From positions 2,170,001 through 2,234,000 of the forward strand of contig NZ_JAPEOX010000001.1 in assembly GCF_026340675.1 (NCBI RefSeq): a stretch of DNA of 64,000 bases, written 5' to 3'. This stretch comes from Streptomyces sp. NBC_01264. GTDB lineage: Bacteria > Actinomycetota > Actinomycetes > Streptomycetales > Streptomycetaceae. This document shows positions 32,585-56,297 of the stretch, piece after piece; position 1 is the first letter of the stretch; each line of letters opens with the position of its first letter. Position numbers and translations under genes: made by a program. Below the pieces are notes generated by a model that saw only the letters and a program-made list of their open reading frames with translations, did no database searches and was not told where the DNA came from.

Positions 32585-32926
32585 TCAGCCGCCGAATCCG
32601 GCAGTCTGGCGCCAGATCCGGCCATCCCGGACGACGAGCGTCCCGAACGCGTGCTCCGGTTCGCCGTTCAGGTTCATGATCGCCCGGTAGAAGATCGTGT
32701 CGTCGGTCTCGATGTACTCCTGGAGCTCCACGAGGGTGGGCTTCACCGTCAGGTACCCGGTGAACGTCTCGCGCACCGCGTCGATGCCGACGGAGACGCC
32801 TTCGAAGCGCAACAGCACCGCGTCGTCGGTGTAGTTCTTCATGACGGCTTCGATGTCCAGCGCGGCGAGCGCGTCCATCTGCCGGACGAACACCGGGTGC
32901 AGCGTGGAGATGTCGTACTTGGGCAT
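32585..32926 (-). CDS. SnoaL/NTF2-like fold protein (fourth copy)
   Basis: A 113-residue protein with the SnoaL-like cone fold pattern: a helix with LAALDIEAVMKNYTDDAVLLRFEG, then beta strands ending GTLVVRDGRIWRQTAGF. Such folds act as small-molecule isomerases, cyclases or binding proteins. It is last in the operon, 12 bp downstream of the histidine kinase gene. No catalytic residue can be assigned. Confidence 0.8.
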   Translation of the reverse strand: MPKYDISTLHPVFVRQMDALAALDIEAVMKNYTDDAVLLRFEGVSVGIDAVRETFTGYLTVKPTLVELQEYIETDDTIFYRAIMNLNGEPEHAFGTLVVRDGRIWRQTAGFGG

Positions 32927-32938
32927 GTCGACTCCCTT

Positions 32939-34486
32939 TCAACTCTTCGATGGGGATGGAGCGGTGGAATCCGTGGAATCCGTGGGACCGGAGGGCTCTT
33001 CGCCCGCGGCCGGCACGGCGCAGGACGGATCGGTCCCGGACAGCGGCAGCCGGACGGTCATCCGGGTCTCCCCCGGCCGCGAGCGGGCCGTGATCGAACC
33101 GTGGTGGCGCTGGGTCACGATGCGGTAGCTGAGGTGGAGCCCGAGCCCCGTTCCCTTGCCCACGTCCTTGGTCGTGTAGAAGGGTTCGAAGATCCTCGGC
33201 AGGGATGCGGCGGGGATGCCCGAGCCGGTGTCGGCGATCTCCACCACCATGCAGACGCCTTCGACCCGGGCCCGCAGGGTGAGGGTTCCGGCGCCTTCCA
33301 TGGCCGCCGCGGCATTGTCGACCAGGTTGGTCCACACCTGGTTCAGCTCGCTCGGATAGCCCGTCAGTTCGGGCAGGTCCGGGTCGTACGAGCGGACGAT
33401 CCCGATGCCCGCGAGCTTGGAACGCAGCACGACCAGCGTGTTCTCCAGCCCGTCGGTCACCGCGAAGCGCTGCTCGGGGGCCCGGTCGAGATTGGCGTAA
33501 TCACGGGTCGCCGAAACGAGTTGGGAGATCCGCGGACCGGCCGCCCGCAGCTCGGCGGCGAGCGAGCGGATCTCCAGGAGGGCCGCCAGATGGTCCAGGG
33601 CCGCGGGCAGGGCCGGCTCGCCGACCCCCTCCAGCCGCTCCAGCAGCCCGCCCAGGTTCAGTCCGAGGTCGGAGACCCCCGAGCCCAGCAGCCCCGCCCG
33701 CTCCGCGCCCGCCTCCTCGGCCCAGTCGGCGATCTCCTCCTCGGCGTCCGCCTGCGCCAGCGGATCGGTGACCTCGGGCGGGGTCACCTTGTCCAGCTCG
33801 ACGGCCAGCTGGTCGAACACGGCGCGCTCCGCGCCGGTGGCGGCCGCGCCCCACGCCTGGGCGGTGCGCGTGAGCTGGTCCAGGGCGGGCGCCAGTTCCT
33901 GCGCGGCCCGGGCCACGGCCGCGGCGGGATTGTTCAGCTCGTGCGCGAGGCCGGCCGCGAGGGTGCCCAGCGCCTCGACGGTGGCCCGTTTGCGGGCCTG
34001 GACCTCGGAGGACTTGATGCGCCAGGCCAGTACGGGGATCAGTACGGCGGCCACCCCGTGGCAGCGGGTCAGCATCTCGAAGAAGACCGGTTTCGCGTAC
34101 GCCACCACGGTCGTGGCGGGCCCGCTCGCCGCGGCCGTGGCCACGTACGCCCCGTCCGTCAGCAGGGGAAGTTCGCCGGTGAACCGGTGCGCGGCCGAGG
34201 GTTTGCCGTCGTGCTCCTCGGCGGCCGCGCTCTCCTCCTCGGTGGAGTGCCGGGTGAGGACCTCTTCGCGGCCGTCGACGACCTTGGTGACCACCAGCCC
34301 ACCGGAGAGCAGGACGTGGAAGCCCGTGGCCTCCTCCCCGTCGCGGAACAGCACCTCCCCGTCGGCGAGCACCCTCGGTTCGGAGACCGAGACCAGCCAG
34401 TCCAGCTGCTCCTCGGTGAGGCCCTCGAAGATCTCCAGCCCGCGCAGGGCGGTGCGCAGCGCGGCGGTGCCCGGGGCCCCGGTCAT
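32939..34486 (-). CDS. Histidine kinase with cyclic-nucleotide-binding domain
   Basis: A 515-residue cytosolic kinase: N-terminal cNMP-binding domain (about 15-145: IFEGLTEEQLDWLVSVSE, GEVLFRDGEEATGFHVLLSG), dimerisation helix with phosphorylated H182 in AAGLAHELNNPAAA, and an ATPase domain with NLVDNAAAAM, IADTGSGIP and GKGTGLGLHLSY. In other actinomycetes this kinase type sits next to a response-regulator/thioredoxin-reductase fusion and a UBP zinc finger protein; here those two are at 56.6-58.6 kb, across the operon. Its ATG overlaps the MFS stop (ATGA). Confidence 0.85.
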   Translation of the reverse strand: MTGAPGTAALRTALRGLEIFEGLTEEQLDWLVSVSEPRVLADGEVLFRDGEEATGFHVLLSGGLVVTKVVDGREEVLTRHSTEEESAAAEEHDGKPSAAHRFTGELPLLTDGAYVATAAASGPATTVVAYAKPVFFEMLTRCHGVAAVLIPVLAWRIKSSEVQARKRATVEALGTLAAGLAHELNNPAAAVARAAQELAPALDQLTRTAQAWGAAATGAERAVFDQLAVELDKVTPPEVTDPLAQADAEEEIADWAEEAGAERAGLLGSGVSDLGLNLGGLLERLEGVGEPALPAALDHLAALLEIRSLAAELRAAGPRISQLVSATRDYANLDRAPEQRFAVTDGLENTLVVLRSKLAGIGIVRSYDPDLPELTGYPSELNQVWTNLVDNAAAAMEGAGTLTLRARVEGVCMVVEIADTGSGIPAASLPRIFEPFYTTKDVGKGTGLGLHLSYRIVTQRHHGSITARSRPGETRMTVRLPLSGTDPSCAVPAAGEEPSGPTDSTDSTAPSPSKS

Positions 34487-35781
34487 GCGGTGCTCCCTTC
34501 CGTCCTGTTGCGGGCCGCCAGCCGCAGGGTGGCCAGCAGGGCCAGGGCGCACACCGCGGCGACGGTGGCCATGAAGCCGACCGAGGTGCGGTGCAGTCCG
34601 TGGATGTTGGTGAGCAGTCCGGCCAGCACCGCCGGCACGCTCATCGCGAGGTACGCGAACACGTAGACGGCGGCGGTCAGTTCGCCCCGGTGCGCCGGCT
34701 CGGCCAGCGCGCTCAGGGCGCGGAAGGAGCCGAGGAAGGCGGCGCCCCAGCCGGCTCCGAGCACCGCGGTGGCCACGAGGAACACGGGGGCGGAGCCGAG
34801 CCCGAGCGCGAGGAGCACCAGGGCCAGTCCGCCCAGCAGCCCGAGCAGGCCGAGGACGGCGGTGCGCAGGGCCTCGGTGCGGCCCAGCAGGAGCTGGGCG
34901 GCGGTGGCGGCTCCGGCGAGGAGGGCCACGGTGGCTCCGCCGACGAGGTAGTTGGTGCTCTGGAGCAGGGACAGGGCCAGGTGCGGGCCGAGCGAGAGGT
35001 AGAACCCTCCGACCGACCAGACGGCCACGATGGTCAGGATCAGCACGGCGAAGCGGCCGCGCGCCGCGGCGGGGATGTGGATCCGGTGCGGGGCCAGTTT
35101 GAAGCGGCCGCCGGCCGCCCGGCCCGCCGCCCGCCCCGGCGCGCTCTCCGCCATCCGGGCCACCCCGACCAGGGAGACGGCGAAGGCCCCGACGAGCAGG
35201 AGGTAGGTCAGCACGGTCGGAGCGGGTGCGTACTGCACCAGCAGCCCGGCCCCGATGCCGCCGAGGCCGATGCCCACCGTCGGGCCGGCGCTGTTGACCT
35301 GGGCGCCGAGCGCGGGCCGCGAACGCGGGGCCAGTTCCAGCAGGGCGGCGCCCATGGCCCCGGCGGCCAGGCCCACCGCCAGCCCCTGCACGGCGCGGGC
35401 GGCGAGCAGCAGGCCGAGCCCCTGGGCCGCGGCGAACAGGCCCATGGCGACGATCGCCAGGACCAGCCCGGCCGCGAGTACGGGCCGCCGGCCGAGGGTG
35501 TCGGACAGCGAGCCGAACAGCAGGAGTCCGGCGAGCACGGTGACGGCGTACAGGGCGAAGACCACCGTGATCATGCCGGAGGACAGGCCCCACTCCTGCT
35601 GGTAGAGGACGTAGAGGGCGGAGGGGACGGAGGAGGAGAGCATCAGCAGGACGAGGACCGCGCCCACCACCCAGAAGCCGGAGCTTCTCGGTGCGCCTGC
35701 GGCGCCGGCGGCTGGACGCAAGGTGACCCCCGTGGTGGTCGCGGACGGCGCGGTCCGTGCTGTCGTGGGCAACGGTTCCAC
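34483..35781 (-). CDS. MFS transporter
   Basis: A 432-residue protein with 12 predicted membrane segments, the loop 2-3 motif LLFGSLSDTLGRRPVL typical of the major facilitator superfamily, and a central hydrophilic loop (about 200-225). It resembles drug/metabolite exporters of the DHA1 type. Overlap with the kinase gene downstream and 26 bp to the molybdenum enzyme gene upstream place it in the operon; export of a pathway product is a reasonable guess. Confidence 0.88.
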   Translation of the reverse strand: MEPLPTTARTAPSATTTGVTLRPAAGAAGAPRSSGFWVVGAVLVLLMLSSSVPSALYVLYQQEWGLSSGMITVVFALYAVTVLAGLLLFGSLSDTLGRRPVLAAGLVLAIVAMGLFAAAQGLGLLLAARAVQGLAVGLAAGAMGAALLELAPRSRPALGAQVNSAGPTVGIGLGGIGAGLLVQYAPAPTVLTYLLLVGAFAVSLVGVARMAESAPGRAAGRAAGGRFKLAPHRIHIPAAARGRFAVLILTIVAVWSVGGFYLSLGPHLALSLLQSTNYLVGGATVALLAGAATAAQLLLGRTEALRTAVLGLLGLLGGLALVLLALGLGSAPVFLVATAVLGAGWGAAFLGSFRALSALAEPAHRGELTAAVYVFAYLAMSVPAVLAGLLTNIHGLHRTSVGFMATVAAVCALALLATLRLAARNRTEGSTA

Positions 35782-35807: not shown

Positions 35808-36635
35808 TCAGGCGGGTGCCTGCACGGCCCTCGTGAGCGCGCGGGCGGTGAGTACGCCCGCGAGGTGGCCGAGGTACTCGGCCGAGGTGCCGCGCCCCGG
35901 GACGAACAGCTCCCGGGGTTCGGCGCGGAAGGCCGCGAGCACGTTCTGCGTGCCGTACGGGCCTCCGCCGATCCGTTCCTCGACCCCGCGCAGCCGCACC
36001 GCGCGGGCGGTGGCCCCGGTGACCGCGATGCGCGGCCCGTCGGGGGTGATCCGTACGGCGACGGCGCAGACCGGGTAGCGGGTCGCCCGGTCGGCGGTCT
36101 TCTCGAAGGCGGCGGCGCCGCCCGCGACCACCGGGACGAGCAGGGCGGTGATGACGGTGCCCGCCGGAACCCCGGAGGCGGCCAGCTCCTCGGCGGTGAT
36201 CACCGACACCCCGCCGGGGCCGGCCAGTTCGGCCGTGGCGCCGGCGGCGATGGCGGCGACGGGCAGGTCGGTGGCCCGGCCGGTGGCGGCGAGGTTGCCC
36301 CCGGCGGTGCCGAGGTTGCGGACCTGGGGGTCGCCGTTGGCGCGGGCCGCGGCGGCGATCTCCGGCGCCCCGGCCAGCACCAGGGGATCCGCGGCCAGCT
36401 CGGCCAGGGTGGTCAGCGCCCCGATCCGGAGCCCCCCGGGTACCGGCTCGATCCCCCGGAGCTCTTCCATCCGGCGCAGGTCGACGAGGAGGGAGGCCCG
36501 CTCCTCCCCCGTGCGCAGGCCGGGCAGCAGGCTCTGCCCGCCGGCCAGCACCCGGGCACCGGGACGGCCGGCGAGCAGGGTCAGCGCCTCGTCGAGGCCG
36601 ACGGGGCGTACGTAGTCGAACTCCGTGAGGATCAC
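35808..36635 (-). CDS. Molybdenum hydroxylase FAD-binding medium subunit
   Basis: A 275-residue subunit of the xanthine dehydrogenase/CO dehydrogenase family. FAD contacts: LAGGQSLLPGLR (about 30-41) and NLGTAGGNLAATGRATDLPV (about 110-128). It passes electrons from the 2Fe-2S small subunit to an acceptor via FAD. The GTG at 36635 overlaps the stop of the large subunit gene (GTGA), so the three subunits are made together. Confidence 0.9.
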   Translation of the reverse strand: MILTEFDYVRPVGLDEALTLLAGRPGARVLAGGQSLLPGLRTGEERASLLVDLRRMEELRGIEPVPGGLRIGALTTLAELAADPLVLAGAPEIAAAARANGDPQVRNLGTAGGNLAATGRATDLPVAAIAAGATAELAGPGGVSVITAEELAASGVPAGTVITALLVPVVAGGAAAFEKTADRATRYPVCAVAVRITPDGPRIAVTGATARAVRLRGVEERIGGGPYGTQNVLAAFRAEPRELFVPGRGTSAEYLGHLAGVLTARALTRAVQAPA

Positions 36636-39049
36636 TGGGCTTCCCCTCTCAGGCGGCGCCAGACCTTTTCCGGGGTGACGGGCATGTCGATGTGCTGCAC
36701 GCCCAGGTCGGACAGGGCGTCGACGACGGCGTTGACCACGGCCGCGGCGGGCGGCACGGTGGCGATCTCGCCGGCGCCCTTGGCTCCCAGCGGGTTGTGC
36801 GGGGTGGGCGTGGTGGTCTTGTCGAGGGTGAAGAAGGGGGCGTCGATGGCGCGTGGCAGCGCGTAGTGGCCCAGGTCGCGGCTGACGAGCTGCCCGTCCG
36901 GGTCGTACTCGGCGTGCTCCATGAGGGCCTGGCCGAGGCCGTGCAGGATGCTGCCCTCGATCTGGCCGAGGACGATCTTCGGGTTGCCGATGTTCCCGGC
37001 GTCGTCGACGGCGGTATAGGCCACCACCTCGGTCTCGCCGGTCAGTTCGTCGATCTCGACGACCGCCACGTGCGTCCCGAAGGGGTAGTTGAAGTCCGGT
37101 GGGTCGAAGTGGGTGGTCTCGTCGAGGGCGGGCTCGATCTCGGGCGGGAGCCCCCAGCCGTACCACATGGCCATCGCCAGCTCGGCGAAGGTCTTGGTGT
37201 TCTCCTCGTTGCCCGCTTCGAAGACCTTGCCGTCCGCGTAGACGACCTTGTCCTCGGGGACGCCGAGGAAGACGGCTCCGGCCTTGACCAGCTTGGCCTT
37301 GAGCTTCCGGGCGGTCAGGGCGATGGCGGGCGCCGCCATGCTGTAGGAGCGCGAGCCGTAAGTCCCCTGGCCGTACGGGGCCTTGAGCGTGTCCCCCTCG
37401 TACACCTGGACCGTCGCCGGGTCGATGCCGAGCTCGTCTGCGGCGACCTGCGCGAAGACGGTGCCGTGGCTCTGGCCGGTGGAGGCGGAGCCGACGGTGA
37501 CGGTGACCTCGCCGGTCGGGTGGACGCGGATGTTCGCGCTCTCCCAGGTACCGCCGAGCATGCCCTCCTTGGACATCCGGGTGGAGGGGCCGACCCCGCA
37601 GATCGCCACGTAGGAGGCGATGCCGACGCCGAGCCGCTTGCCGCGGGTGCGGGCCTCGGTCTTGCGGGCGGGCATGTCGGCGTAGCCGGAGAGCTCGATG
37701 GCCCGGTCGAAGTTGAGTTGGTAGTCGCCCGAGTCGTAGGTCCAGCCGAGGCCGTTGTCGTACGGGAACTTCTCCTTCGGCACCAGGTTCCTGCGGCGCA
37801 CCGCCGCCGGGTCCATGCCGATCTCGGAGGCGTAGCGGTCCACGAGCCGCTCCATCAGGAACGCGGCCTCGGCGCGCCCGCTGCCGCGCTGGGCGCCGAG
37901 CGGGACGGTGTTGGTGAAGGCGACGTAGACCTCGCAGAACGCGGCGTCGATGTCGTACATGCCGCTGATGGAGCGGCCCATCAGGGCGGTGGCGACGCCG
38001 GGGCCGATGGTGGAGGGGTAGGCGCCGAGGTTGGCGTAGCTCGTGCAGCGCACGGCGGTGATCCGGCCGTCGCGGGTGCCGGCCAGGGTGACGTGCTGGC
38101 GGTGGTCGCGGCCCTGGACGGTGGAGTTCATCAGCCCGGTGCGGGTGTCGACCCATTTCACGGGCCGGCCGAGCGCCTTGGAGAGCAGCAGGACCAGCGC
38201 CATGTCGGGGTACAGGTACCCCTTGGTGCCGAAGCTGCCGCCGACGGTCGGGGCGACGACGCGGAGCTTGTTGAAGGGGATGCCGAGGACCAGGGCGGAG
38301 AGCAGGAAGCGGTGGTTGTGCGGGCCCTGGGTGGAGGCGTACAGCGTGTACTCGCCGGTGGCGGCGTTGTAGTCGCCGACCGCGCCGCGCGGCTCGATGG
38401 GGCTGTTGATGGTGCGCTGGTTGACGAGATCGAGCTCTACCGTGACCTCCGCCTCGGCGATGGCCGCGTCGGTGCGGTCCTTGTCGCCGCAGGTCCAGTA
38501 CGCGTTCAGGTTGCCGGGCACGGCCTCGTGGAGCTGCGGGGCGCCTTCGGCGAGGGCCTCGTCGGCGCGGGTCACCACGGGCAGCGGCTCGTACTCGACG
38601 GAGATGGCGGCGAGCGCCGCGGCGGCCTGGCGCGGGGTCTCGGCGACGACCACGGCGATGGCGTCGCCGACGTGGCGCACGGTGTCGCCGGACAGCACTG
38701 GGCGGGAGCCGGGAAGTCCGTAGGGGTGGGGCGGGAAGTGGCTCTCGACCCCGCCGGGTATCCAGATGCAGGGCAGCGGCATGACGTCGGTGAAGTCGGC
38801 CGCGGTGGCCACCTTCAGTACGCCCGGCAGCTGCTCGGCGGCCTTGGCGTCGATGGAGAGGATCTTCGCGTGGGCCACGGGGCTGCCGAGGATCGCCATG
38901 TGGGCGGTGCCCGGCAGGTCGATGTCTCCCACGTACGTGGCCTCGCCGCGCAGGAGCTGCGGGTCCTCACGGCTGTCCAGTGGCTGTCCGAGCAGGCCGT
39001 TGCCCTGGATCGGCGCCTGGAGCGGGGTCTCCCCCGTGACTGCGGTCAT
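36632..39049 (-). CDS. Molybdenum hydroxylase large (molybdopterin) subunit
   Basis: An 805-residue catalytic subunit of the xanthine dehydrogenase family. Molybdopterin contacts VGGSFGTKG (about 280), the [15 protein letters not shown] segment and the catalytic Glu in [11 protein letters not shown] near the C-terminus are present. The CO-dehydrogenase active-site loop (AYxCSFR) is absent, so an aldehyde or N-heterocycle oxidase is more likely. ATG at 39049 with GAGGGAG upstream; 5 bp after the small subunit stop. Substrate unknown; carbonyl oxidation fits the neighbours. Confidence 0.9.
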
Positions 39050-39054: not shown

Positions 39055-39594
39055 TCACCCCTCCTGTCCGGACGCGGCGGCGGTGGCCGGCTGCGCGGTG
39101 CCCTGCTCCACGGGCGCCTGCGCGCGGGCCGCGGAGCAGGCGCGCTGCACTCCCCGTACGACGCTGTGGTAGCCCGTGCAGCGGCACAGGTTGCCGGTGA
39201 GCCACTCGCGGATCTCGGGCTCGGTGGGCGGCTCGCGGTCGGTGGTGTTGTCGACCAGTTCACCCAGGGCCATGACCATCCCGGGAGTGCAGAAGCCGCA
39301 CTGGGTGCCGTGTTCCTCGCGCAGGGCCTCCTGGAGGCCGGTGAGTTCACCGCCGGGGGTGGTGACCCCTTCGATGGTGGTCACCGCGGAGCCGGCGGCC
39401 GCCGCGGTGAGGATCAGGCAGCTCTTGACGGAACGGCCGTCGAGCCGGACGACGCAGGTTCCGCACTGGCCGGTGTCGCAGCCGACCTTGGTGCCGGTCA
39501 GCCCGAGGCCGTCGCGGAGCCGTTCGACGAGCAGTTCGTTCGGCTGCGCCGAGAACTGCTCGGGTCTTCCGTTGACGTTCAGTGAGAGGTCCAT
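39055..39594 (-). CDS. Molybdenum hydroxylase 2Fe-2S small subunit
   Basis: A 179-residue subunit with eight cysteines for two 2Fe-2S clusters: C39, C44, C47, C59 (plant ferredoxin type, GCDTGQCGTC) and C99, C102, C137, C139 (GFCTPGM, LCRCTGY). It ends in an Ala/Gln-rich tail. The ATG at 39594 is internal to a longer open frame and matches the family start. Its start overlaps the end of the F420-oxidoreductase-like gene by 16 nt. Confidence 0.92.
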   Translation of the reverse strand: MDLSLNVNGRPEQFSAQPNELLVERLRDGLGLTGTKVGCDTGQCGTCVVRLDGRSVKSCLILTAAAAGSAVTTIEGVTTPGGELTGLQEALREEHGTQCGFCTPGMVMALGELVDNTTDREPPTEPEIREWLTGNLCRCTGYHSVVRGVQRACSAARAQAPVEQGTAQPATAAASGQEG

Positions 39595-40193: not shown

Positions 40194-40230
40194 GAGGGCT
40201 CCTCCGGTGGTCTGCGTGCGAGCGGTGAGG

Positions 40231-45396: not shown

Positions 45397-47528
<2,132 letters not shown>

Positions 47529-47532
<4 letters not shown>

Positions 47533-47939: not shown

Positions 47940-49760
47940 CTACTGGGCGGTCGGGCGCAGCCGGACCTTGACCTTGACCCGGCCCTGGACGTCGGGCAGC
48001 CGGACGGTGAGTCCGTCGGCGTCGAAGTCCGTGTACGGCTTCTCGTCGATCTCGACGGACGCGATCCGCACCGAGCCGGCGGGGAGCAGGTCGGGCGAGA
48101 CGCGCAGCACGCGGTCGGGCAGGTTCGTCGGGTCGGGCTGGAAGTGGAAGTCCATCTCCCGGCCGTTGATGAGCAGGTTGTTGTAGACGGCGGACAGGTA
48201 GCAGAGCTCCGCCGAGTGGTACATGGACATCGAGTGGCTGCCCTTGAGCCGCTCGGTCCCGAGCAGGTACGGGGTCCCGCTCGCGAGGACGTTGAAGTAG
48301 ACGGCACCCTCGTCGTGGTCGAGGAAGAAGGTGTTGTAGAAGGCCTCCGCCTGCCGGGCCTCGCGCAGGAAGCCGTCACCGCCGACGGTGCCGTTCAGGA
48401 TGAGGTAGGCGAGGATCGCCTGCTCCTGCTGCCACCAGGCCTTGCGGTCGTGCCAGGCGAAACGATACGCCTCCTCGTCCCCGGACTTGACGCGCTCGAC
48501 CACGTCGTACCAGCCTCCGCGCTGCACGTCGCTGCCGACGGCCGGCATGATCTCGCCGATCTTGCGGGCGAGCTCCTCGTAGGCCGGCTTGGCCTTCAGC
48601 GAGTTCATCCGCATCAGGTTCCAGGCGATCTTGAGGTTGTGGCCGACGACCGCGCGGTTCTGCTGCCAGCTGTGCGCGGTGTCGTGGGACCAGTCGCGGA
48701 AGAAGCGCTCCTGGACGAAGGGGCTGTTCTTGTAGTCCGGGAACTTGTCCGCGATCGTGTCGAAGGTGTACTCGAGGAAGTCGGCGTAGCTCTGCTCGCC
48801 GGTCGCCAGGTACAGGTTGATCAGGTACGCGGGCGCGTGGTCGCCGACCGAGTTCCAGTTCTTGCGCTCCGCGTTCTCCCCGAGGGACTCGTGGTCGGCG
48901 CTGAAGAGGATCGGGTCGATGTGCGAGTAGTAGCCGCCCTGCTCCGGGTCCTTGAAGAACTTGTCGAACAGCCGGATCGTGGCGTCCGCGTCGTTCTTGA
49001 TCCGGATGTCGCCGGTGACCCGGTAGGTCTGGATCGGGCCGGCCAGCGCGTAGATCTGCTCGTACATCGGGATCGCGTCGTAGTCGTCGGAGAACTCCGA
49101 GGTGAACAGTTTGCGTTCGCTGTCCCCGTCGACGCTGATGCCGTGGTACCAGAAGACCACGTCCTCCTCGCTGTCCACGACGCGCATGTGCTTGCGCAGG
49201 TACTCGGTGCCGCGCTCGGCGACCTCCAGGTACTCGTCCTTGCCGGTCAGCAGGTAGGCCGAGGCCATGCCGTAGACCAGGCGGGAGATCGTGTCGGTCT
49301 CCTGGACATGACTGGCGGTCTTGTCACCGCCGAGCCGGACCTCGGTGCGGTACTCGGTGAAGTCCACCGGCCCGTCGCCGAACTGCGCCCGCTTGTAGAA
49401 GTCGGCCAGCGACTCGATCTGCTTGATCCACCAGCTGGGCTCCTCGAAGCGGTAGTCCTCGGCCCCGCGGCCCAGGAACACCAGGCGCTTGGCCTCGAAG
49501 CGGCCGCCCTGCTCGGGGTAGTGCACCCCGTAGACGTAGAGGAACCGTCCCGGCGAGAGCATCTCGTCGATGTGCCCGGAGGCGTCGATGTACGGCTCGT
49601 CCAGGTTGCGGACCAGCTCGGCGCTGGGGTCCCCGGCCAGGGAGACGTCGAACTCGCGGCCGTCCGAGGTCTTCAGCCTCAGCAGCCGGGTTCCGGAGTC
49701 GAAGCGGCCGACGTAGCCGGCGATCGTGTCGGAGAAGGAGAAGCTCACGGCGTCCGCCAT
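47940..49760 (-). CDS. AGE-family epimerase/isomerase-like protein with N-terminal extension
   Basis: A 606-residue protein. The middle (about 100-500) has the (alpha/alpha)6 barrel pattern of N-acylglucosamine 2-epimerase relatives: SRLVYGMASAYLLTGKDEY, GYYSHIDPI, SWQQNRAVVGHNLKIAW with the His typical of the active site, and WWQQEQAILAYLILNG. About 100 N-terminal residues form an additional beta-rich domain (VGRFDSGTRLLRLKTSDG) and a C-terminal beta stretch follows. Normal family length is about 400. I chose the ATG at 49760; a GTG 9 nt upstream is possible. Sugar substrate unknown. Confidence 0.72.
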   Translation of the reverse strand: MADAVSFSFSDTIAGYVGRFDSGTRLLRLKTSDGREFDVSLAGDPSAELVRNLDEPYIDASGHIDEMLSPGRFLYVYGVHYPEQGGRFEAKRLVFLGRGAEDYRFEEPSWWIKQIESLADFYKRAQFGDGPVDFTEYRTEVRLGGDKTASHVQETDTISRLVYGMASAYLLTGKDEYLEVAERGTEYLRKHMRVVDSEEDVVFWYHGISVDGDSERKLFTSEFSDDYDAIPMYEQIYALAGPIQTYRVTGDIRIKNDADATIRLFDKFFKDPEQGGYYSHIDPILFSADHESLGENAERKNWNSVGDHAPAYLINLYLATGEQSYADFLEYTFDTIADKFPDYKNSPFVQERFFRDWSHDTAHSWQQNRAVVGHNLKIAWNLMRMNSLKAKPAYEELARKIGEIMPAVGSDVQRGGWYDVVERVKSGDEEAYRFAWHDRKAWWQQEQAILAYLILNGTVGGDGFLREARQAEAFYNTFFLDHDEGAVYFNVLASGTPYLLGTERLKGSHSMSMYHSAELCYLSAVYNNLLINGREMDFHFQPDPTNLPDRVLRVSPDLLPAGSVRIASVEIDEKPYTDFDADGLTVRLPDVQGRVKVKVRLRPTAQ

Positions 49761-49761
49761 G

Positions 49762-50196
49762 TCATGCACCGTCCTTGTCGTGTTGACCGTGTTCGTCCTC
49801 GAATCCCTGGCTGACTTCGACGATCACCCCGTCGGGATCGCGGACCCACACGGTCCGCCAGCCGCAGATGAAATCGTCGAAGTCCAGTGGCCCCAGGGTC
49901 ACTTCGGCCGCTTCGCCGAGCGTGGCCAGGAAGCCGTCCACGCTGTCGGTCTGGAAGGCCAGGTGGCGCATCCGGCCCGGTGCCGCCGGCCCGTCGTGCT
50001 GGGCCGTCTCGGCCGGCTCGGTGCCCGCCGCGAAGAGCTCCAGGTACACGTCCCCCTGGCGGAGGAAGATGATCTGTGCGTCTCCGAGGTCGACCACCCG
50101 GGCCCGGGTGAAGCCGAAGTACCGGGTGTAGAAGTCCTCGGTGGTCTTCTGGTCGGCGCAGTTCAGGCCCACGTGCGACCAGACCATCGGGGCCAT
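49762..50196 (-). CDS. Single-domain VOC protein
   Basis: A 144-residue glyoxalase/dioxygenase-fold protein: SHVGLNCADQKTTEDFYTRYFG at the N-terminus (H8 as first metal ligand), MRHLAFQTDSVDGFL (second His), and WVRDPDGVIVEVSQG (Glu ligand). Retained ligands suggest a metal-dependent enzyme, such as lactoylglutathione- or mycothiol-type isomerase. Overlaps the DJ-1 gene upstream by 1 nt. Confidence 0.87.
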   Translation of the reverse strand: MAPMVWSHVGLNCADQKTTEDFYTRYFGFTRARVVDLGDAQIIFLRQGDVYLELFAAGTEPAETAQHDGPAAPGRMRHLAFQTDSVDGFLATLGEAAEVTLGPLDFDDFICGWRTVWVRDPDGVIVEVSQGFEDEHGQHDKDGA

Positions 50197-50834
50197 CAGC
50201 CGGTGCCCCGGCGGCTCTGGTCCCCCTTGGCCCGCGTGCCCCGGTCGGCGGCGATCAGCTCGATGATCCGGCGGGCGAACAGGTGGTGGTGGGCCCCGGT
50301 GCGGCCGGTGACCAGGTCGCCGTCGACGACCACGTCCTCGTCCACGTACTCGCCGCCCATGTTCCGGACGTCACCGATGAGGTTGTTGTGGCAGACGACC
50401 TTGCGGCCGCGCACCTTGTCCGGGATCGAGGCGGCCAGCCACATGCCGTGGCAGATGATCCCCTTGAGGACCGTCGGCTCCTCGAAGGCCCGGCGCAGCA
50501 GCTCCGTCGCCGGGGCCAGCACGTCCACGTCCTCGGTGTAGCGCAGCCGGTCGGCCACCATGCCCGAGGGCACGATGATCGCCGAGTAGCGCCGCAGGTC
50601 CTCGTCGCTCAGCCCCTCCAGGGACTGGGTCGCGGTGAACGGCGCCCGGTACTCGTGCCCGGAGAAGGTGATGGAGTCGTTGCCCCACAGCCGGGTCAGG
50701 AAGTCGACCTCGGCGCCCTCCTCCGCGAACCGGTGGCCGTAGTAGAAGATCTCCGGCTCGTAGAAGTCGCTCTCGACCAGGACCGCGATCCGGGTTCCGG
50801 TCAACGCACCCTCGCGCAGGACCACATCAGGCAC
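50196..50834 (-). CDS. DJ-1/PfpI-family protein B
   Basis: A 212-residue PfpI-type protein with nucleophile C128 in GIICHGMWLAAS, acidic partner E26/E28 region in ESDFYEPEIFYYG and the C-terminal GRTGAHHHLFARRIIEL. It resembles PfpI protease/deglycase relatives. Ends 8 nt inside no other gene; its start overlaps the end of the GMC oxidoreductase gene by 8 nt. Confidence 0.85.
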   Translation of the reverse strand: MPDVVLREGALTGTRIAVLVESDFYEPEIFYYGHRFAEEGAEVDFLTRLWGNDSITFSGHEYRAPFTATQSLEGLSDEDLRRYSAIIVPSGMVADRLRYTEDVDVLAPATELLRRAFEEPTVLKGIICHGMWLAASIPDKVRGRKVVCHNNLIGDVRNMGGEYVDEDVVVDGDLVTGRTGAHHHLFARRIIELIAADRGTRAKGDQSRRGTG

Positions 50835-52431
50835 GGGACACCCCCTTCAGGAAGTCCGCCGCGCGCTCGGCGATCATCGCGATGGCGGTGTGGCAGTTGC
50901 CCGACGGGACGGCGGGCATCACGCTCGCGTCGACGACGCGCAGGTTCCGTACGCCGTGCACCCGCAGTTCCGGGTCGACGACGGAGAGGTCGTCGATGCC
51001 CATCCGGCAGGAGCCGGCCTGGTGGTGGTAGCTCTCCGACTTCTGCTTCACGAAGGTGCGCAGGTCCTCGTCGGACACGTAGCCGGGTCCGGGCTGGAGC
51101 TCCTGCTTGTACCAGGGCGAGAAGGCGGAGGTCGCGAAGATCTCCCGGGCGGTCTTGACGCCCTGCACCATCCGCTCCAGGTCCCAGCGGTCACCCAGGT
51201 AGTTGGGGTGGATCAGCGGGTGGGCCAGCGGATCGGCGCTCGCCAGCTTGATCCAGCCCCGCGAGACGGGCCGGACGACACCGGGCAGGATGGACACCGT
51301 GTTCGGGTGGTCCTGACCGACGATCACGTCGAAGGGCACGTGAACGAAGGCGATCTGCAGGTCCGGCGCCGGCAGCCCGGGCCGGGACGAGAGGAACAGC
51401 GCGCTCTCCGACAAGTTCTGTGCGGGTGGCGGCAGTTCCTGGGTGACCTCGGCCATCAGCCCGGTCAGTACGTGGTTGTGGAAGTTCTCCCCGACCCCGG
51501 GCAGCTCCGCGACGGTCCCGATGCCGTGCTCGCGCAGCTGCTCGGGGTGCCCGATCCCGGAGAGCAGCAGCAGCTTCGGCGATTCGATCGCCCCGGCGGC
51601 CACGATCACCTCCCGGCGGGCCCGTACGGTGTGCGGCCCGGGCTCGGGGGCGGTGCTGTGCCCGTCGCGCACGGTCCGGCCGGGGATCTCAGCGGGGGCC
51701 TGGAGCTGGACGTACTCCACACCCGTGCAGGTGTCCCCGTCGAAGAGCAGCCGGGTGCTCTGCGCACTGGTGCGCAGGGTCAGGTTGGAGCGGTCGAGCG
51801 CCGGTTCCAGGTAGGCGGCGAGGACGCCCTGGCGGCGGCCGTCCGCCACGTCGATGTGGTGCCAGCCGGTGCCGAAGAGTCCGCGCCGCGGCCCGTCGGT
51901 GTTGAAGTCGGCGATCTCCTCGTGCCCGAGCTCGACGGCGGCGTCGATGAAGGCGCGGGAGACCGGGTTGGGGCCGTGTCGCCCGGCGTGGGTGATCCGC
52001 TGCGGCCCGCGGGTGCCGGTGGTCGGCGCGGTGGCGTCCTCCTGGCCCTCCAGCAGCGAGAAGTAGGGCAGGACGTCCTCGTGCGCCCAGCCGGCCGCGC
52101 CCTGGTAGGCCCAGTTGTCGAAGTCCGAGGCGTGGCCCCGGATGTGCATCATGATGTAGAGGTTGCTGCTGCCCCCGGGGGCCTTGCCGCGCGGTTCGTA
52201 GGTGCGGCGGCCGTCCAGGCCGGGCTGCGGGACGCTGGTGTAACCCCAGTCGACGGGTCCGCCGAGCAGCTTGTACCAGGAGGACGGATCGTCCACCTCG
52301 GGAGGGATGCGGCCGGCCCCCGCCTCCAGGACCAGGACGGTGACGTCCGGGTCCTCGGAGAGCCGGTTCGCCAGGACGCTGCCGGCGGTGCCGGAGCCCA
52401 CGACGATGTAGTCGTACTCATCCACGGCCAT
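50827..52431 (-). CDS. GMC-family FAD oxidoreductase
   Basis: A 534-residue glucose-methanol-choline oxidoreductase. FAD motif YIVVGSGTAGSVLANRLS (8-25), GGSSNLYIMMHIRGHASDFDNW (seen as parts GGSSNLY and RGHASDFDNW), and C-terminal active-site His in SYHHQAGSCRMG with second His in GNCHTAIAM. It oxidises an alcohol (sugar, polyol, choline-like) to a carbonyl. ATG at 52431 chosen from the conserved start; upstream frame is another gene. 11 bp after a SnoaL-like gene. Confidence 0.92.
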   Translation of the reverse strand: MAVDEYDYIVVGSGTAGSVLANRLSEDPDVTVLVLEAGAGRIPPEVDDPSSWYKLLGGPVDWGYTSVPQPGLDGRRTYEPRGKAPGGSSNLYIMMHIRGHASDFDNWAYQGAAGWAHEDVLPYFSLLEGQEDATAPTTGTRGPQRITHAGRHGPNPVSRAFIDAAVELGHEEIADFNTDGPRRGLFGTGWHHIDVADGRRQGVLAAYLEPALDRSNLTLRTSAQSTRLLFDGDTCTGVEYVQLQAPAEIPGRTVRDGHSTAPEPGPHTVRARREVIVAAGAIESPKLLLLSGIGHPEQLREHGIGTVAELPGVGENFHNHVLTGLMAEVTQELPPPAQNLSESALFLSSRPGLPAPDLQIAFVHVPFDVIVGQDHPNTVSILPGVVRPVSRGWIKLASADPLAHPLIHPNYLGDRWDLERMVQGVKTAREIFATSAFSPWYKQELQPGPGYVSDEDLRTFVKQKSESYHHQAGSCRMGIDDLSVVDPELRVHGVRNLRVVDASVMPAVPSGNCHTAIAMIAERAADFLKGVSRA

Positions 52432-52442
52432 CGCGCGCCCCC

Positions 52443-52823
52443 TCAGCCCTGGCCGAGCACCTGGAAGGGAACCGTGTCGTGGTAGTTCGCCATGTAGGCG
52501 ATCTTTCCGTCCACGATCCGGAAGAAGTTCATGACCTCGGCCTCGATCTCCGCCCCGGTGGGGGTGACCGCGGTCAGGTGGGAGACGGCCGCGGCCTTCT
52601 CCCCGTCGACGAGGAAGTGCACGGGCTCGTTGCGGAAGACCCGGTACATGGCCCCCATGCCCTTCATCATCGACCGCAGCGTCTCCAGGCCCTCGATGTG
52701 GCCGGCGAGCTGCTCGTCCATGACCTGGTCCTCGGCGAACAGGTCGCACCAGCTGTCCCAGTCACCGGCGTTGGCGTACTCGTAGTACTTCTGCAAGATC
52801 TGCCGCGCGTCCATGGCGCTCAT
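52443..52823 (-). CDS. SnoaL/NTF2-like protein (third copy)
   Basis: A 126-residue SnoaL-fold protein: ILQKYYEYANAGDWDSWCDLFAEDQVMDE and FFRIVDGKIAYMANYHDTVPF. Ketosteroid isomerase-type proteins with this fold act on small cyclic substrates or only bind them. GATGAG start region; 4 bp after the previous SnoaL gene. Confidence 0.85.
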   Translation of the reverse strand: MSAMDARQILQKYYEYANAGDWDSWCDLFAEDQVMDEQLAGHIEGLETLRSMMKGMGAMYRVFRNEPVHFLVDGEKAAAVSHLTAVTPTGAEIEAEVMNFFRIVDGKIAYMANYHDTVPFQVLGQG

Positions 52824-52827
52824 CCCC

Positions 52828-53283
52828 CTATCCGTCCCTGCGGGTTCCGTCCGGGGCGAAGGGCGCCCAGAACTGGCTGAAGGCGGTGGCCGTGTCGCCG
52901 AAGAGACCGTCGTGGCCCTCGACGATCCGGCCGTCGCGCCAGCGCATGAAGTGGAAGACCGGGTAGTCCATCCGCTCGTACGGGGAGTTGCTCGACTCGT
53001 CGGCGCCGCCGCGCACGGCGACGTTGCGGCAGACGTCCGCGCTGCAGTCCTCGCCGACGAGGACCGCTTCGATGTCCATGCGGAAGGTGCCGCCCGTGAG
53101 CTTGTGGGTCTGGCCCATCAGCTCCAGGAAGGCGTCCAGGCTCTCGTACCAGCCGGCGAGCGGGTGGTTGCCGGGGACCTGCCAGCGCAGGTCCTCCGCG
53201 TAGTACTCCAGGATCCTGGCCCGGTCGCCGGAGCCGAGGGCGCGGTACGCCGCCTCGACCCGTTCCCGTGTCACTTCGGTCAT
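52828..53283 (-). CDS. SnoaL/NTF2-like protein (second copy)
   Basis: A 151-residue SnoaL-like protein: VEAAYRALGSGDRARILEYYAEDLRWQVPGNHPLAGWY (recognised in parts), then FHFMRWRDGRIVEGHDGLFGD. Good GGAGAA ribosome site just before the ATG at 53283. The copy differs strongly from its neighbours, so these are not recent duplicates. Confidence 0.85.
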   Translation of the reverse strand: MTEVTRERVEAAYRALGSGDRARILEYYAEDLRWQVPGNHPLAGWYESLDAFLELMGQTHKLTGGTFRMDIEAVLVGEDCSADVCRNVAVRGGADESSNSPYERMDYPVFHFMRWRDGRIVEGHDGLFGDTATAFSQFWAPFAPDGTRRDG

Positions 53284-53303
53284 CGTCGCTTCTCCTTCGG
53301 CGC

Positions 53304-53735
53304 TCAGAGGGAGGCTGAACCGGGCATGGGCGCCAGTTCGTTGACGGTGTACTGCCGGATCAGCGGCCCGTCGGGGCCGGTGACCACGGTCCAGGTCTGG
53401 TCGGCGTCGAAGCCGAGCCACACGCTGCGGGCGGCCGGCGGGTCCCAGATCTTGGCCTGCCAGTTGACGAGGACCCGGACGATCGCCCGGTCGCCCTCGA
53501 TGACGGGCTCCACCTTGGTGACCGTGTGCACCTCGTCGAAGAAGCGGTTGGTGACCGCCTCGTACCAGCGGCCGAAGCCCTGGTGGCCGAGGAAGGTGTC
53601 CTCCGGGACCTTGAACTCCAGGTCCTCGGTGATCAGGGCCAGCACCTGGTCCGGCTGGACGTGCTGGTCCAGGGCCACGTACCACTTCTCGGCGAAATCG
53701 CGGATCGCGTCCTCGGTCAGCCGCTCGGCGGGCAT
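53304..53735 (-). CDS. SnoaL/NTF2-like protein (first copy)
   Basis: A 143-residue SnoaL-like protein: ALDQHVQPDQVLALITEDLEFKVPE and GFGRWYEAVTNRFFDEVHTV, with a strand rich in tryptophan (AKIWDPPAARSVWLGF). GGAGGAGA lies 6 nt before the ATG at 53735. First of three adjacent SnoaL genes just downstream of the ThDP enzyme. Confidence 0.83.
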   Translation of the reverse strand: MPAERLTEDAIRDFAEKWYVALDQHVQPDQVLALITEDLEFKVPEDTFLGHQGFGRWYEAVTNRFFDEVHTVTKVEPVIEGDRAIVRVLVNWQAKIWDPPAARSVWLGFDADQTWTVVTGPDGPLIRQYTVNELAPMPGSASL

Positions 53736-53761
53736 GCGGTCTCCTCCTGTCTGTGGCGGTG

Positions 53762-55426
53762 TCAGATTTGTATGTCCACGAGGAACGGCCCGGGGTGGGC
53801 GAGCATCCGGCCCACCGCGGCGATCGCCTCGTCGGGCTTCTCCACCCGCATCCCGCCCGCCCCGAGCGACCGGGCCAGAGCGGCGAAGTCGATCTCGGGG
53901 TGCGAGAGGTCGAAGGAACCCGGGAAACCGTGCTGCGGAATCTCCCGCTCCCGCCAGTACTGGGCGATGTTGTCGTCCAGCAGCCGGTACTTGCGGTTGT
54001 TGCAGACCACGAACTTGGCGTCGATGCCGTGCCGGGCCGCGGTCCACAGCGCCTGGTAGGTGTACATCGAGCCGCCGTCGCCCGCGAAGCCGACGACGAG
54101 CCGCTCCGGCCGGGCCAGCTTCACGCCGACCGCGCCCGGGAAGCCCACGCCCAGCGATCCGCCCCGGGTGAGGTGGTAGTCGCCCGGCCGCTCCGGCGGC
54201 AGGTACCGGGTGACCAGCGGAGAGGTGGTCAGCGCCTCGTCGAAGACGATCAGGTCCCCGCCGGTGCGCTCGGCCAGCGTCCGCAGGAAGACCGCCATCG
54301 GCGAACCGGCTGCCTCTTCGGAGCCCTTGGCCTCCCGCTCGGCCTGGTCCGCCCGCACCCGCTCCCGGGTCCGCGCGTCCAGCCGCCCGGCCGCCGCCGC
54401 CCGCTGCGCGGGGGTGAGCACGTGGTCCAGTACGCCGGCCAGCGCGCGCAGCGCCTGCCGGGGATCGGCGGCGAGCCCGAGGTCCACCGGGTGGTTCTTG
54501 GCGATCTCGTAGGCGTTCAGGTCGATGTGCACGACCCGCGCGCCGGCCCGGAAGGGGCTCTCCAGCTCCGGGAACACCTCGGGGAAGACGTAGGTGCCGA
54601 CGATCAGCACCCCGTCCGCGTTGCCGATCAGCTCCTTGCTGTGCGGGCCGAACATGTGGCCGGTCTGACCGCGGCGCAGCGGGTGCGAGGCCGCGATGTT
54701 CACCTCCGAGGAGTCGACCTCGTACACGTCGGCGCCCAGCAGCTCGGCGACGGCGACGAGTTCGCGCTGCGCCCCGGAGAGGGAGACCCCGTCCCCGACG
54801 AGGACGACCGGCCGCTCGGCGGAGGCCAGCAGCTCGGCCGCCCGCCCCACCGAGGCGGGCGAGGGCGCCACGTCCGTGAGGGGCACCGTGGCGGGCAGCA
54901 CGAGCTCGGAGTTGAGCTCGTCCAGCACGTCCATCGGCAGCGCCACGAACACCGGGCCGCGCGGCGGGGTCAGGGCGATCTTCACCGCCCGGCGGATCGT
55001 GCGGAGCACGGAGTGCCGGTCGGTGACCCGGGTCGCGTACTTGGTCACCGGCTTCGCCATCGCCACCAGGTCGGACGCCATCTGCGCGTCCATGGCGTCG
55101 TAGCGCACCCCGGCGTCACCGGCGACCACGACGAGCGGGGTGTGGCCGCGCAGCGACTGGTAGAGCATGCCGATGCCGTTGCCCAGCCCCACCCCGGAGT
55201 GGAGCTGGAGCAGCGCCGCCCCGCCGGTGGCCCGGGCGTAGCCGTCGGCGATGCCGGCGGCCACCGTCTCCTGGAGGGCGAGGACGTAGTGGAAGTCCTC
55301 CGCCGCGTCGACCGCGTCGAGGAATCCCTGTTCCACCGTCCCCGGATTTCCGAACATGACGTTCAGGCCGTCGGCCTTGAACTGGTCGATCAGCCTTTCC
55401 CGTCCGGGAGTGGCTCCAGAACTCAT
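53762..55426 (-). CDS. ThDP-dependent decarboxylase/carboligase
   Basis: A 554-residue enzyme of the acetolactate synthase/benzoylformate decarboxylase family. Catalytic Glu E53 in LALQETVAAG, central domain (about 195-330), and the thiamine motif GDGGSMYTYQALW ending in NN (about 455-482). RGPVFVALPMDVLDE is shared with benzoylformate decarboxylase-like proteins. It probably splits or joins a 2-keto acid or an aldehyde. Second gene of the operon, 46 bp after the first DJ-1 gene. Confidence 0.88.
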   Translation of the reverse strand: MSSGATPGRERLIDQFKADGLNVMFGNPGTVEQGFLDAVDAAEDFHYVLALQETVAAGIADGYARATGGAALLQLHSGVGLGNGIGMLYQSLRGHTPLVVVAGDAGVRYDAMDAQMASDLVAMAKPVTKYATRVTDRHSVLRTIRRAVKIALTPPRGPVFVALPMDVLDELNSELVLPATVPLTDVAPSPASVGRAAELLASAERPVVLVGDGVSLSGAQRELVAVAELLGADVYEVDSSEVNIAASHPLRRGQTGHMFGPHSKELIGNADGVLIVGTYVFPEVFPELESPFRAGARVVHIDLNAYEIAKNHPVDLGLAADPRQALRALAGVLDHVLTPAQRAAAAGRLDARTRERVRADQAEREAKGSEEAAGSPMAVFLRTLAERTGGDLIVFDEALTTSPLVTRYLPPERPGDYHLTRGGSLGVGFPGAVGVKLARPERLVVGFAGDGGSMYTYQALWTAARHGIDAKFVVCNNRKYRLLDDNIAQYWREREIPQHGFPGSFDLSHPEIDFAALARSLGAGGMRVEKPDEAIAAVGRMLAHPGPFLVDIQI

Positions 55427-55472
55427 CGAACTCCCCCTCCTTTGCGTACCGTCGTGCCGGAGTTGCCGCCAA

Positions 55473-56297
55473 TTACCAGCCGTACCGGGTGAGACCGTTC
55501 TCCAGGACTTCCACGATCTTCTGCCCCGTGAGATAGGAATCCGGGGTCGAACGACCGGTCACGAAGGGGAAGTCGACGATCACCGAAAGGGGATGGCCGA
55601 AATTCCCGTGGTACGCGCCGCGCGGCCCGGTGGCATCGCGCAGGATGTACTCCAGCGGATACGGCGGCGGCCCCATGTTGAAATCGGTACCGAGGAATCC
55701 GGTGCCGTCCTTGTAGTCGTACTCCTTGCAGTGGCCGGTCACGTGCTTGCCCCAGATGATGCTGCGGCGGTCGCCCCAGTCCCGGGCGAAGGCCAGGCAG
55801 GCGACGCCGTAGCACTCGGCGGCGACGACCTTGCCCGCGTTCTTGAAGGCGAGGATCAGGGCGTGCACGCGCTCGTTGTTGGCGAGGTCGACGATCGGAC
55901 CGCTGCCGCCCACGATGAGCACCGCGTCGAAGCCGGCGATGTCGGCCTGCAGCTTGTCCAGATCGCGGTGGTACTGCTCCAGCTTGGGCAGATAGGCCGA
56001 GTCGCTCGTGTACGGGCGCTCGGGGGCCCACGCTTCGATGTCGAGGGGGGAGTCGAGCCGGCTCGACTGCTCGAACTCCCGGCCCAGCCGGGCGTTCTCC
56101 TCGGTGGTGACCGAGCGTCCCAGCGGAGGATCGATGTAGTTCGCGTCGAGGCTCGGCGGGAGAGCGTGGGCACGCTTTCCGGTCGGCGTGGCGAATACGA
56201 CTTCATAGCCCTTCTCGTCGAACTGGGATACGGGGCCGATCAGTTCCTCGGCCCAGTAACCGTGTTCGGAGACAATGACCAGAATCTTTCTGCTCAC
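55473..56297 (-). CDS. DJ-1/PfpI-family protein A, first gene of the operon
   Basis: A 274-residue DJ-1-type protein: ILVIVSEHGYWAEELIGPVSQF at the start (acidic E18/E19), nucleophile C162 in VAAECYGVACLAF, VLIVGGSGPIVDL, and VIVDFPFVTGRST near the end. GTG at 56297 with GGAGGA 5 nt upstream. It is the promoter-proximal gene of the large minus-strand run and lies below a candidate promoter and repeat-rich region. Confidence 0.87.
   Translation of the reverse strand: MSRKILVIVSEHGYWAEELIGPVSQFDEKGYEVVFATPTGKRAHALPPSLDANYIDPPLGRSVTTEENARLGREFEQSSRLDSPLDIEAWAPERPYTSDSAYLPKLEQYHRDLDKLQADIAGFDAVLIVGGSGPIVDLANNERVHALILAFKNAGKVVAAECYGVACLAFARDWGDRRSIIWGKHVTGHCKEYDYKDGTGFLGTDFNMGPPPYPLEYILRDATGPRGAYHGNFGHPLSVIVDFPFVTGRSTPDSYLTGQKIVEVLENGLTRYGW

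Follow-up and report, generated by a model that had tools for sequence, protein, structure and literature searches.

The closest described relative of the system reported here is the icfG operon of Synechocystis (slr1852-1862), studied in this cyanobacterium as a hub of carbon control, with its targets unsettled in the portion of the report available to us (PMC12329169). According to the accessible parts of two reports (PMC8670252, PMC12329169), Slr1855 is annotated as an N-acetylglucosamine 2-epimerase, Slr1856 and Slr1859 as (putative) anti-sigma antagonists and slr1857 as GlgX2, followed by slr1860 for the phosphatase IcfG and slr1861 for a kinase. The excerpts of the second report state that Slr1856 and Slr1859 are phosphorylated by Slr1861, that Slr1856 is dephosphorylated by IcfG, and that icfG-operon mutants grow poorly or fail with glucose or at low carbon (PMC12329169). 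The cluster analyzed here lies in the 10.67-Mb genome of Streptomyces sp. NBC_01264, within a stretch of 64,000 nucleotides (contig NZ_JAPEOX010000001.1, positions 2,170,001 to 2,234,000) that we call the window. It is a predicted operon of 24 genes, with a gene of the N-acylglucosamine 2-epimerase (AGE) family, a gene for the glucan debranching enzyme GlgX and a set of partner-switch genes at its centre.

The original prediction for this DNA stated that no described system with such content was known. The centre of the operon does match the icfG operon by content, as far as the available parts of the two reports extend (PMC12329169, PMC8670252). The prediction missed this match because it missed the partner-switch genes: its list omitted two STAS proteins, an RsbW-like ATPase, a SpoIIE-type PP2C, a MinD/ParA ATPase and a sensor kinase binding cyclic nucleoside monophosphate (cNMP). 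In the open-licence literature we found no description of the cluster outside cyanobacteria, and neither the spread of the switch-plus-GlgX core across phyla nor its joining to a module of DJ-1 proteins and a thiamine diphosphate (ThDP) enzyme was found in print. The terms icfG, STAS, anti-sigma and partner were not found in the first 300,000 of 445,374 characters of a large review of prokaryotic alpha-glucan enzymes (PMC11046441).

We favor, with somewhat more confidence than doubt, a reading in which the AGE-like protein and a distinct GlgX lineage form a hub, the icfG-type switch and a carbonyl module attach to it separately, and a glucan-derived sugar would be turned into carbonyl intermediates under the switch. 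Judged by predicted protein families, the switch module consists of two STAS proteins, the RsbW-like kinase and PP2C, often with MinD, and the carbonyl module of DJ-1a, the ThDP enzyme and DJ-1b, often with SnoaL, GMC and VOC proteins. By the same measure, this operon has both modules and a lineage-specific oxidizing tail (DJ-1c, aldehyde dehydrogenase (ALDH), molybdenum hydroxylase and MFS transporter).

Layout of the Operon

All 24 open frames lie on the minus strand, from the GTG at 56297 to the stop at 32585. The first third encodes DJ-1a, the ThDP enzyme, SnoaLa, SnoaLb, SnoaLc, GMC, DJ-1b and VOC; the middle encodes AGE, STAS1, GlgX, STAS2, the RsbW-like kinase, the SpoIIE-type PP2C and MinD/ParA; and the end encodes DJ-1c, ALDH, a Rossmann protein, the 2Fe-2S, large and flavin adenine dinucleotide (FAD) subunits of the molybdenum hydroxylase, the MFS transporter, the cNMP-binding kinase and SnoaLd. 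With the starts chosen here, no gap exceeds 67 bp (DJ-1c to ALDH), genes overlap at 9 of the 23 junctions, and a hairpin of 18 pairs follows the last gene, all of which bears out the one-strand arrangement originally described. Most of the predicted gene content was also recovered with Pfam, namely three DJ-1/PfpI and four SnoaL proteins, VOC, the ThDP enzyme, GMC, the AGE-like protein, GlgX, ALDH, three molybdenum hydroxylase subunits and MFS. The label "F420-type reductase" had to be dropped: the protein is a Rossmann protein only, scoring 31 bits with npdG against a curated cut-off of 149.8.

Directly 5' of GTG 56297 stands a promoter candidate, TTGACG-N17-CAGTGT. Its second hexamer matches poorly, and a consensus scan of 40000-56700 returned no site, this one included, so that it stays a candidate only. 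An upstream ATG at 56441 was disfavored as the first start by 1-bp indels in two related loci (L104, L105). The 3' hairpin (32567-32524) is kept in Streptomyces genome G012 with a compensating change from U-A to C-G, and is without a T-run. A known RNA element in the region was excluded, with no match at gathering score to any of 4227 Rfam families.

Synteny with G012 extends over 28 genes in identical order: beyond the 24 of the operon it takes in the TMEM175, DDE_5, XdhC and IMPDH genes that follow downstream. All 18 Streptomyces loci of the window type whose 10-kb flanks are complete carry the genes of the operon from DJ-1a through the MoCo family; these flanks stop before the FAD subunit, MFS, cNMP kinase and SnoaLd genes, which were compared with G012 alone. 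Together, the synteny and the 18 loci indicate that the genes are grouped by more than chance.

The Carbonyl Module Follows the AGE Gene within Streptomyces

AGE was found in 27 of 199 same-genus genomes, a 29% identical fragment in one more genome (G112, E 9e-4) being left out of the count. The ThDP enzyme, DJ-1a and DJ-1b occur in exactly those 27. Their joint presence holds where AGE and ThDP sit on separate contigs (G017, G136) or in other orders, and several AGE lineages exist among the Streptomyces copies, so the four genes were not passed on together as a single block. Naive odds of 10^-33 for identical profiles are meaningless as a probability because the genomes are related.

Other parts of the operon are less constant. 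SnoaLc is present in 17 of the 27 AGE genomes and in none of the 172 others (E 1e-30). In the stretches of about 20 kb, a few of them shorter, that were taken around AGE in the 27 genomes, STAS1, STAS2, kinase and PP2C all occur near AGE in 14, those in which AGE is at least 72% identical; MinD is likewise near AGE in 14. A GlgX of at least 45% identity stands beside AGE in 24, the exceptions being G136 (a 3.5-kb contig), G195 and G197. Not counted as module genes were STAS2 matches of 26-31% in G014, G136, G195 and G202 and a 26% GlgX match in G195; raw tallies that include such weak matches are 25 for GlgX and 18 for STAS2. The molybdenum large subunit, at 90% identity or more, is found in 12 of the 199 genomes, our own included and all among the 27, the remaining matches in the 52 matching genomes (40-44%) being left out. 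Co-conservation is thus confirmed for AGE, ThDP, DJ-1a and DJ-1b, and does not extend to all 24 genes as a single unit. Nor did the icfG-type core hold up as the constant part, with the full switch near AGE in only those 14 genomes. A draw across the phylum gave a single AGE genome in 296 at E 1e-60, that of the window itself.

A second Streptomyces arrangement was also observed (G003, G011, G017, G084, G093, G199), in which AGE and GlgX lie beside a DDE-type gene without switch genes, and DJ-1a, ThDP and DJ-1b lie several kb off or on another contig.

The Switch Accompanies the AGE Gene in Other Phyla

The genome loci compared are the best 80 of 523 confirmed, 23 from Streptomyces and 57 from others, a selection that favors sequences close to the query. 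Some come from metagenome bins, and their taxonomic assignment may be in error. Core loci occur in Deinococcota, Chloroflexota, Pseudomonadota, Bacteroidota and Cyanobacteriota, some of them on plasmids. Among the 57 non-Streptomyces loci, the order AGE-STAS-GlgX-STAS is found in 42, and AGE-STAS-GlgX without a close second STAS in eight. GlgX lies upstream of AGE in three and downstream without STAS between in two; one locus shows another state and one has no GlgX on its contig. Where both flanks are complete (34 non-Streptomyces loci), GlgX is present in 34, a DJ-1b relative in 31, STAS1 in 31, STAS2 in 32, the kinase in 30, PP2C in 29 and a TMEM175 relative within 10 kb of AGE in nine. AGE therefore tracks the carbonyl module inside the genus and the switch, which is near-constant there, outside it.

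DJ-1a (E 1e-30), scored in 39 of the 57 loci, is present in 17 of these 39 core-bearing genomes. A close DJ-1b (at least 50% identity) in the locus tracks it, with 13 of 17 against 4 of 22 (Fisher P = 0.0004), a comparison whose cells are related by descent.

Searches with AGE (tblastn) returned 20 plasmid records, from Streptomyces (8), Nostoc (4), Gloeothece (2) and, once each, Deinococcus, Gemmobacter, Runella, Gloeocapsopsis, Halomontanus and Persicobacter. Identity is only 24-37% in four weak matches, and 59-64% for the proteins of Deinococcus, Gemmobacter and Runella. On the Deinococcus plasmid, the order of the window recurs almost unchanged from DJ-1a to MinD, with fewer SnoaL-type genes and the kinase unannotated in a gap. 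The Runella plasmid keeps the order between DJ-1a and the kinase, except that GMC precedes a SnoaL/NTF2-like block, which is larger there. On the Gemmobacter, Gloeothece and Gloeocapsopsis plasmids, AGE and GlgX are present and no STAS is annotated.

A chance collection of genes on one strand is hardly conceivable in the light of the gene order kept across phyla and the identical profiles in 27 genomes, and is refuted for AGE, STAS, GlgX, kinase, PP2C, DJ-1a, DJ-1b and ThDP. The tail may nevertheless be unrelated to the rest, given that no Fer2, MoCo or F420-like relative was found within 10 kb of the core in the 34 full-flank non-Streptomyces loci, and ALDH in only one.

Genes of the EthD, carboxymuconolactone decarboxylase and ABM families recur near the core in 27, 20 and 8 of 64 loci (the EthD cluster being transitive), among them L058, L060, L081 and others, mostly cyanobacterial. 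Folds of the SnoaL, EthD, ABM and carboxymuconolactone decarboxylase types are common in tailoring. Another alternative is that the genes make a small molecule, derived from sugar and secreted, with SnoaL, VOC and GMC as tailoring enzymes, the MFS protein as exporter and the partner switch for timing. The recurrence of SnoaL, EthD, ABM and carboxymuconolactone decarboxylase genes and the patchy distribution speak for it. We give it little credence, however, since Pfam revealed no polyketide synthase, nonribosomal peptide synthetase or terpene-cyclase domain among the 24 genes, and GlgX fits primary metabolism.

Residues of the Partner Switch Are Conserved

In the window, AGE, STAS, GlgX and STAS are adjacent on one strand in the icfG-type order, and the kinase and phosphatase lie within the same operon with their catalytic residues present. 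Both STAS proteins carry the phospho-acceptor serine. In STAS1 it is kept in 52 of 52 non-Streptomyces and 22 of 22 readable Streptomyces matches, and in STAS2 in 51 of 53 and 22 of 22, respectively. E53 and N57 of the RsbW-like kinase occur in all aligned matches (22 + 41). The three Asp positions of PP2C are kept in 22 of 22 Streptomyces matches and in 38, 37 and 38 of 38 others. In these alignments, the residues of the switch are thus intact and kept across phyla.

The AGE-like Protein, GlgX and the Molybdenum Enzyme

Identity between the AGE-like protein and 24 relatives, chosen from several phyla, is 58-80%, and the AGE proteins of cyanobacterial loci other than that of Synechocystis match at 58-64%. 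Its nearest named relatives are from Streptomyces (92-96%), two named loci reaching 98%. Cellobiose 2-epimerase has two catalytic histidines and an HxxE motif. The window protein resembles this superfamily in its Pfam match (GlcNAc_2-epim), in its match to 3vw5 (1.7e-5) and in keeping the His of HxxE. It differs in length (606 aa against 389), in its score with NCBIfam EpiA (25 bits against a cut-off of 800) and in a Lys that replaces the Glu of the motif in all 25 aligned rows. The position of the second catalytic His falls past the end of the alignment to 3vw5.

Three GlgX proteins of the genome score above the family cut-off. The operon copy is 64% identical to the GlgX of the Deinococcus operon, and 40% and 42% identical to the other two of its own genome, from which a branch with 100/100 support separates it in a midpoint-rooted tree (38 rows chosen, 37 used). 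Another type of GlgX that accompanies AGE, without STAS (Gemmobacter, Gloeothece, Gloeocapsopsis, Nostoc C052, L110, G003, G011), groups apart on the ordinary-GlgX side of this tree. The operon GlgX keeps the three catalytic Asp/Glu/Asp motifs, as does the S. venezuelae debranching enzyme placed under cyclic di-GMP control in the available part of one report (PMC9530166). The window copy differs from that protein by having no RxxD in its first 260 residues, and is far from the other two GlgX of its genome. Control by cyclic di-GMP of the S. venezuelae type was rejected on the strength of the motif missing from that stretch.

Glucan-related genes were also seen around some AGE loci. On a Streptomyces plasmid (L036), an annotated maltotransferase (GlgE-like), GlgB, a phosphotransferase and a nucleoside diphosphate (NDP)-sugar synthase flank the module, and relatives of the maltotransferase and phosphotransferase occur in L084, L106, G003 and G014.

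The active-site loop of form I CO dehydrogenase is AYRCSFR. The molybdenum large subunit has AQRGSGR instead and scores 626 bits with TIGR02416 against 991, and aerobic CO dehydrogenase of form I was rejected on these grounds. The subunit falls below all 13 curated cut-offs listed.

Proposed Pathway and Alternatives

Composition, order and co-inheritance of the operon can be read directly from the genomes compared. For the sugar substrate, the carbonyl intermediates, their flow into the oxidizing tail and the signal and target of the switch, we infer the following scheme. GlgX would trim a branched glucan, and the AGE-like enzyme would isomerize the sugar released. The GMC, ThDP, SnoaL, VOC and DJ-1 enzymes may then pass on keto- or aldehyde intermediates, which ALDH and the molybdenum hydroxylase could oxidize to acids. 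A carbon or redox signal would drive PP2C to dephosphorylate the STAS proteins, which would then draw the kinase away from its partner, which may be one of the enzymes of the cluster or a sigma factor whose gene lies elsewhere. The theme of the original prediction, in which reactive aldehydes or dicarbonyls would be made from sugars and oxidized, is suggested by the protein families.

Several observations weigh against the reading of a switched hub. Neither a kinase nor a PP2C relative lies near AGE in 13 of the 27 Streptomyces genomes (two of them, G118 and G136, at a contig edge), and no close GlgX lies beside AGE in G195 and G197. The carbonyl module is not obligate outside the genus, as the scoring of DJ-1a shows. 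The Lys in place of the HxxE Glu makes the reaction of the AGE-like protein uncertain. A single sigma factor query matched only the syntenic G012 copy among 101 loci, and no sigma factor is named in the annotated plasmid loci.

A single promoter could instead serve two independent units: a glucan regulator of the icfG type, with AGE as a member, and a set of genes that detoxify aldehydes and dicarbonyls, with DJ-1 as glyoxalase III or deglycase, VOC and ALDH. DJ-1a was not found at E 1e-30 in 22 of the 39 core-bearing non-Streptomyces genomes, which fits this alternative, as do the CHG and GGHG motifs of DJ-1c, which we take to be of the Hsp31 type. We nevertheless consider it unlikely. At the cut-offs used, AGE never occurs in the 199 genomes without ThDP, DJ-1a and DJ-1b, nor they without it; the switch is missing near AGE in 13 of the 27 genomes, so that within the genus AGE is tied more closely to the carbonyl module than to the switch; and DJ-1a has Tyr after the Cys where the other two DJ-1 proteins have His.

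A bolder form of the hub reading, which we regard as improbable, would have a horizontally spread, cross-phylum glucan-to-carbonyl pathway built around the changed AGE protein. Where the switch is present, the kinase and STAS proteins would hold or release GlgX or AGE directly, in place of a sigma factor, MinD/ParA would position the enzymes on storage glucan, and keto- or aldehyde products would arise from glucan only when required.

With the icfG gene set present in Streptomyces, Deinococcus, Bacteroidota and others, the question of what it controls could be approached in hosts that do not photosynthesize. The inheritance of AGE with DJ-1a, ThDP and DJ-1b even without the switch suggests that they share a series of reactions and that some DJ-1 proteins have a specific role in metabolism.

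Genes Neighboring the Operon

The features are collected in Table 1. Some neighbors beyond the ends of the operon (the divergent FAD/response-regulator gene, TMEM175 and XdhC) probably belong to the system too. In L110 and L117, AGE is followed by relatives of the FAD/response-regulator gene (53%) and of the cNMP kinase (33-35%), which suggests that the divergent gene is part of it. The start of this FAD fusion is placed at GTG 56862, as suggested by the overlap with the zf-UBP stop; together, the zf-UBP and FAD fusion genes (56593-58619, plus strand) may encode a partner of the cNMP kinase (32939-34486). The XdhC family comprises maturation factors for molybdenum hydroxylases, and XdhC thereby fits the molybdenum hydroxylase of the operon.

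The DDE_5 transposase-like gene (30452-31762, minus strand), syntenic in G012, has relatives (31-42%) near AGE in several Streptomyces and allied genomes. None of seven inverted-repeat pairs flanks it as a terminal pair, and an intact insertion sequence was rejected; perhaps the gene is domesticated. Downstream of the FAD fusion (58690-60105, plus strand) follow a gene for a 165-aa protein without Pfam match, present in 17 of 21 full-flank Streptomyces loci, and then ABM monooxygenase and globin genes. A Barstar-family gene and an overlapping ribonuclease-family gene just upstream of it (60294-61213, minus strand) form a barnase/barstar-like pair. A gene with Sigma-70 regions 2 and 4 (24469-25101, minus strand), with a 90% match in G012, lies about 7.5 kb past the end of the operon.

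Table 1. Features of the operon and its surroundings in window coordinates (MFE, minimum free energy; ORF, open reading frame)
Feature	Position	Strand	Evidence
Response regulator fused to FAD oxidoreductase	56862..58619	+	Pfam; listed ORF 56706-58619
zf-UBP protein, divergent	56593..56865	+	Pfam
Candidate operon promoter	56338..56366	-	Kept in aligned upstream regions of window + 19 Streptomyces loci
DJ-1a, ThiJ/PfpI-like	55473..56297	-	Pfam ThiJ_like 9e-17
ThDP enzyme, benzoylformate-decarboxylase-like	53762..55426	-	Profile/homology matches
SnoaL-like protein a	53304..53735	-	Pfam
SnoaL-like protein b	52828..53283	-	Pfam
SnoaL-like protein c	52443..52823	-	Pfam
GMC oxidoreductase, choline/alcohol-oxidase-like	50827..52431	-	Profile/homology matches
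DJ-1b, DJ-1/PfpI	50196..50834	-	Pfam
VOC protein	49762..50196	-	Pfam
AGE-family protein (N-acylglucosamine/cellobiose 2-epimerase-like)	47940..49760	-	Pfam GlcNAc_2-epim
STAS1, anti-sigma-antagonist-like	47529..47903	-	Pfam
GlgX debranching enzyme, operon-type lineage	45397..47532	-	TIGR02100 688 bits, above cut-off; tree
STAS2, anti-sigma-antagonist-like	45061..45372	-	Pfam
RsbW-like serine kinase	44591..45055	-	HATPase_c_2 5e-23
SpoIIE-type PP2C phosphatase	43350..44609	-	Pfam 6e-43
MinD/ParA-type ATPase	42520..43350	-	RGGTGKS loop; Pfam
DJ-1c	41783..42523	-	Pfam; CHG and GGHG motifs
Aldehyde dehydrogenase (ALDH)	40231..41715	-	Pfam
NAD(P)-Rossmann protein (F420 use unsupported)	39579..40193	-	Pfam
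Molybdenum hydroxylase 2Fe-2S subunit	39055..39594	-	Pfam
Molybdenum hydroxylase large subunit	36632..39049	-	Pfam
Molybdenum hydroxylase FAD subunit	35808..36635	-	Pfam
MFS transporter	34483..35781	-	Pfam
cNMP-binding + HATPase sensor kinase	32939..34486	-	Pfam
SnoaL-like protein d	32585..32926	-	Pfam
18-pair hairpin after last gene	32524..32567	-	MFE z -4.9; 0/200 shuffles as good
TMEM175-like channel	31835..32482	-	Pfam
XdhC-family protein	29289..30452	-	Pfam; syntenic in G012

Comparison with Known Systems

The window proteins share families and motifs with the DJ-1/Hsp31 glyoxalase III enzymes and the molybdenum aldehyde oxidoreductases, activities that are predicted here from sequence. 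With the RsbV/RsbW/RsbU and SpoIIAA/AB/SpoIIE switches the operon has in common STAS proteins with a serine, a Bergerat-type kinase and a SpoIIE-type phosphatase; it differs from them in having no sigma gene among its 24 and in that the two STAS genes wrap a glucan enzyme. The likeness to the icfG operon, which is one of names and order in the published annotation as far as available and not of Synechocystis sequences, extends to an epimerase-like gene, STAS, GlgX, STAS, PP2C and an RsbW-like kinase in one operon and in nearly the same order. The window has the kinase before the phosphatase, has no carboxymuconolactone decarboxylase (slr1853 in the icfG operon) among its 24 genes, and adds MinD and 17 other genes. 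We conclude that the switch-plus-GlgX core was already known from a cyanobacterium, and that its spread across phyla and its link to the DJ-1/ThDP module, absent from the literature searched, appear to be the new part.

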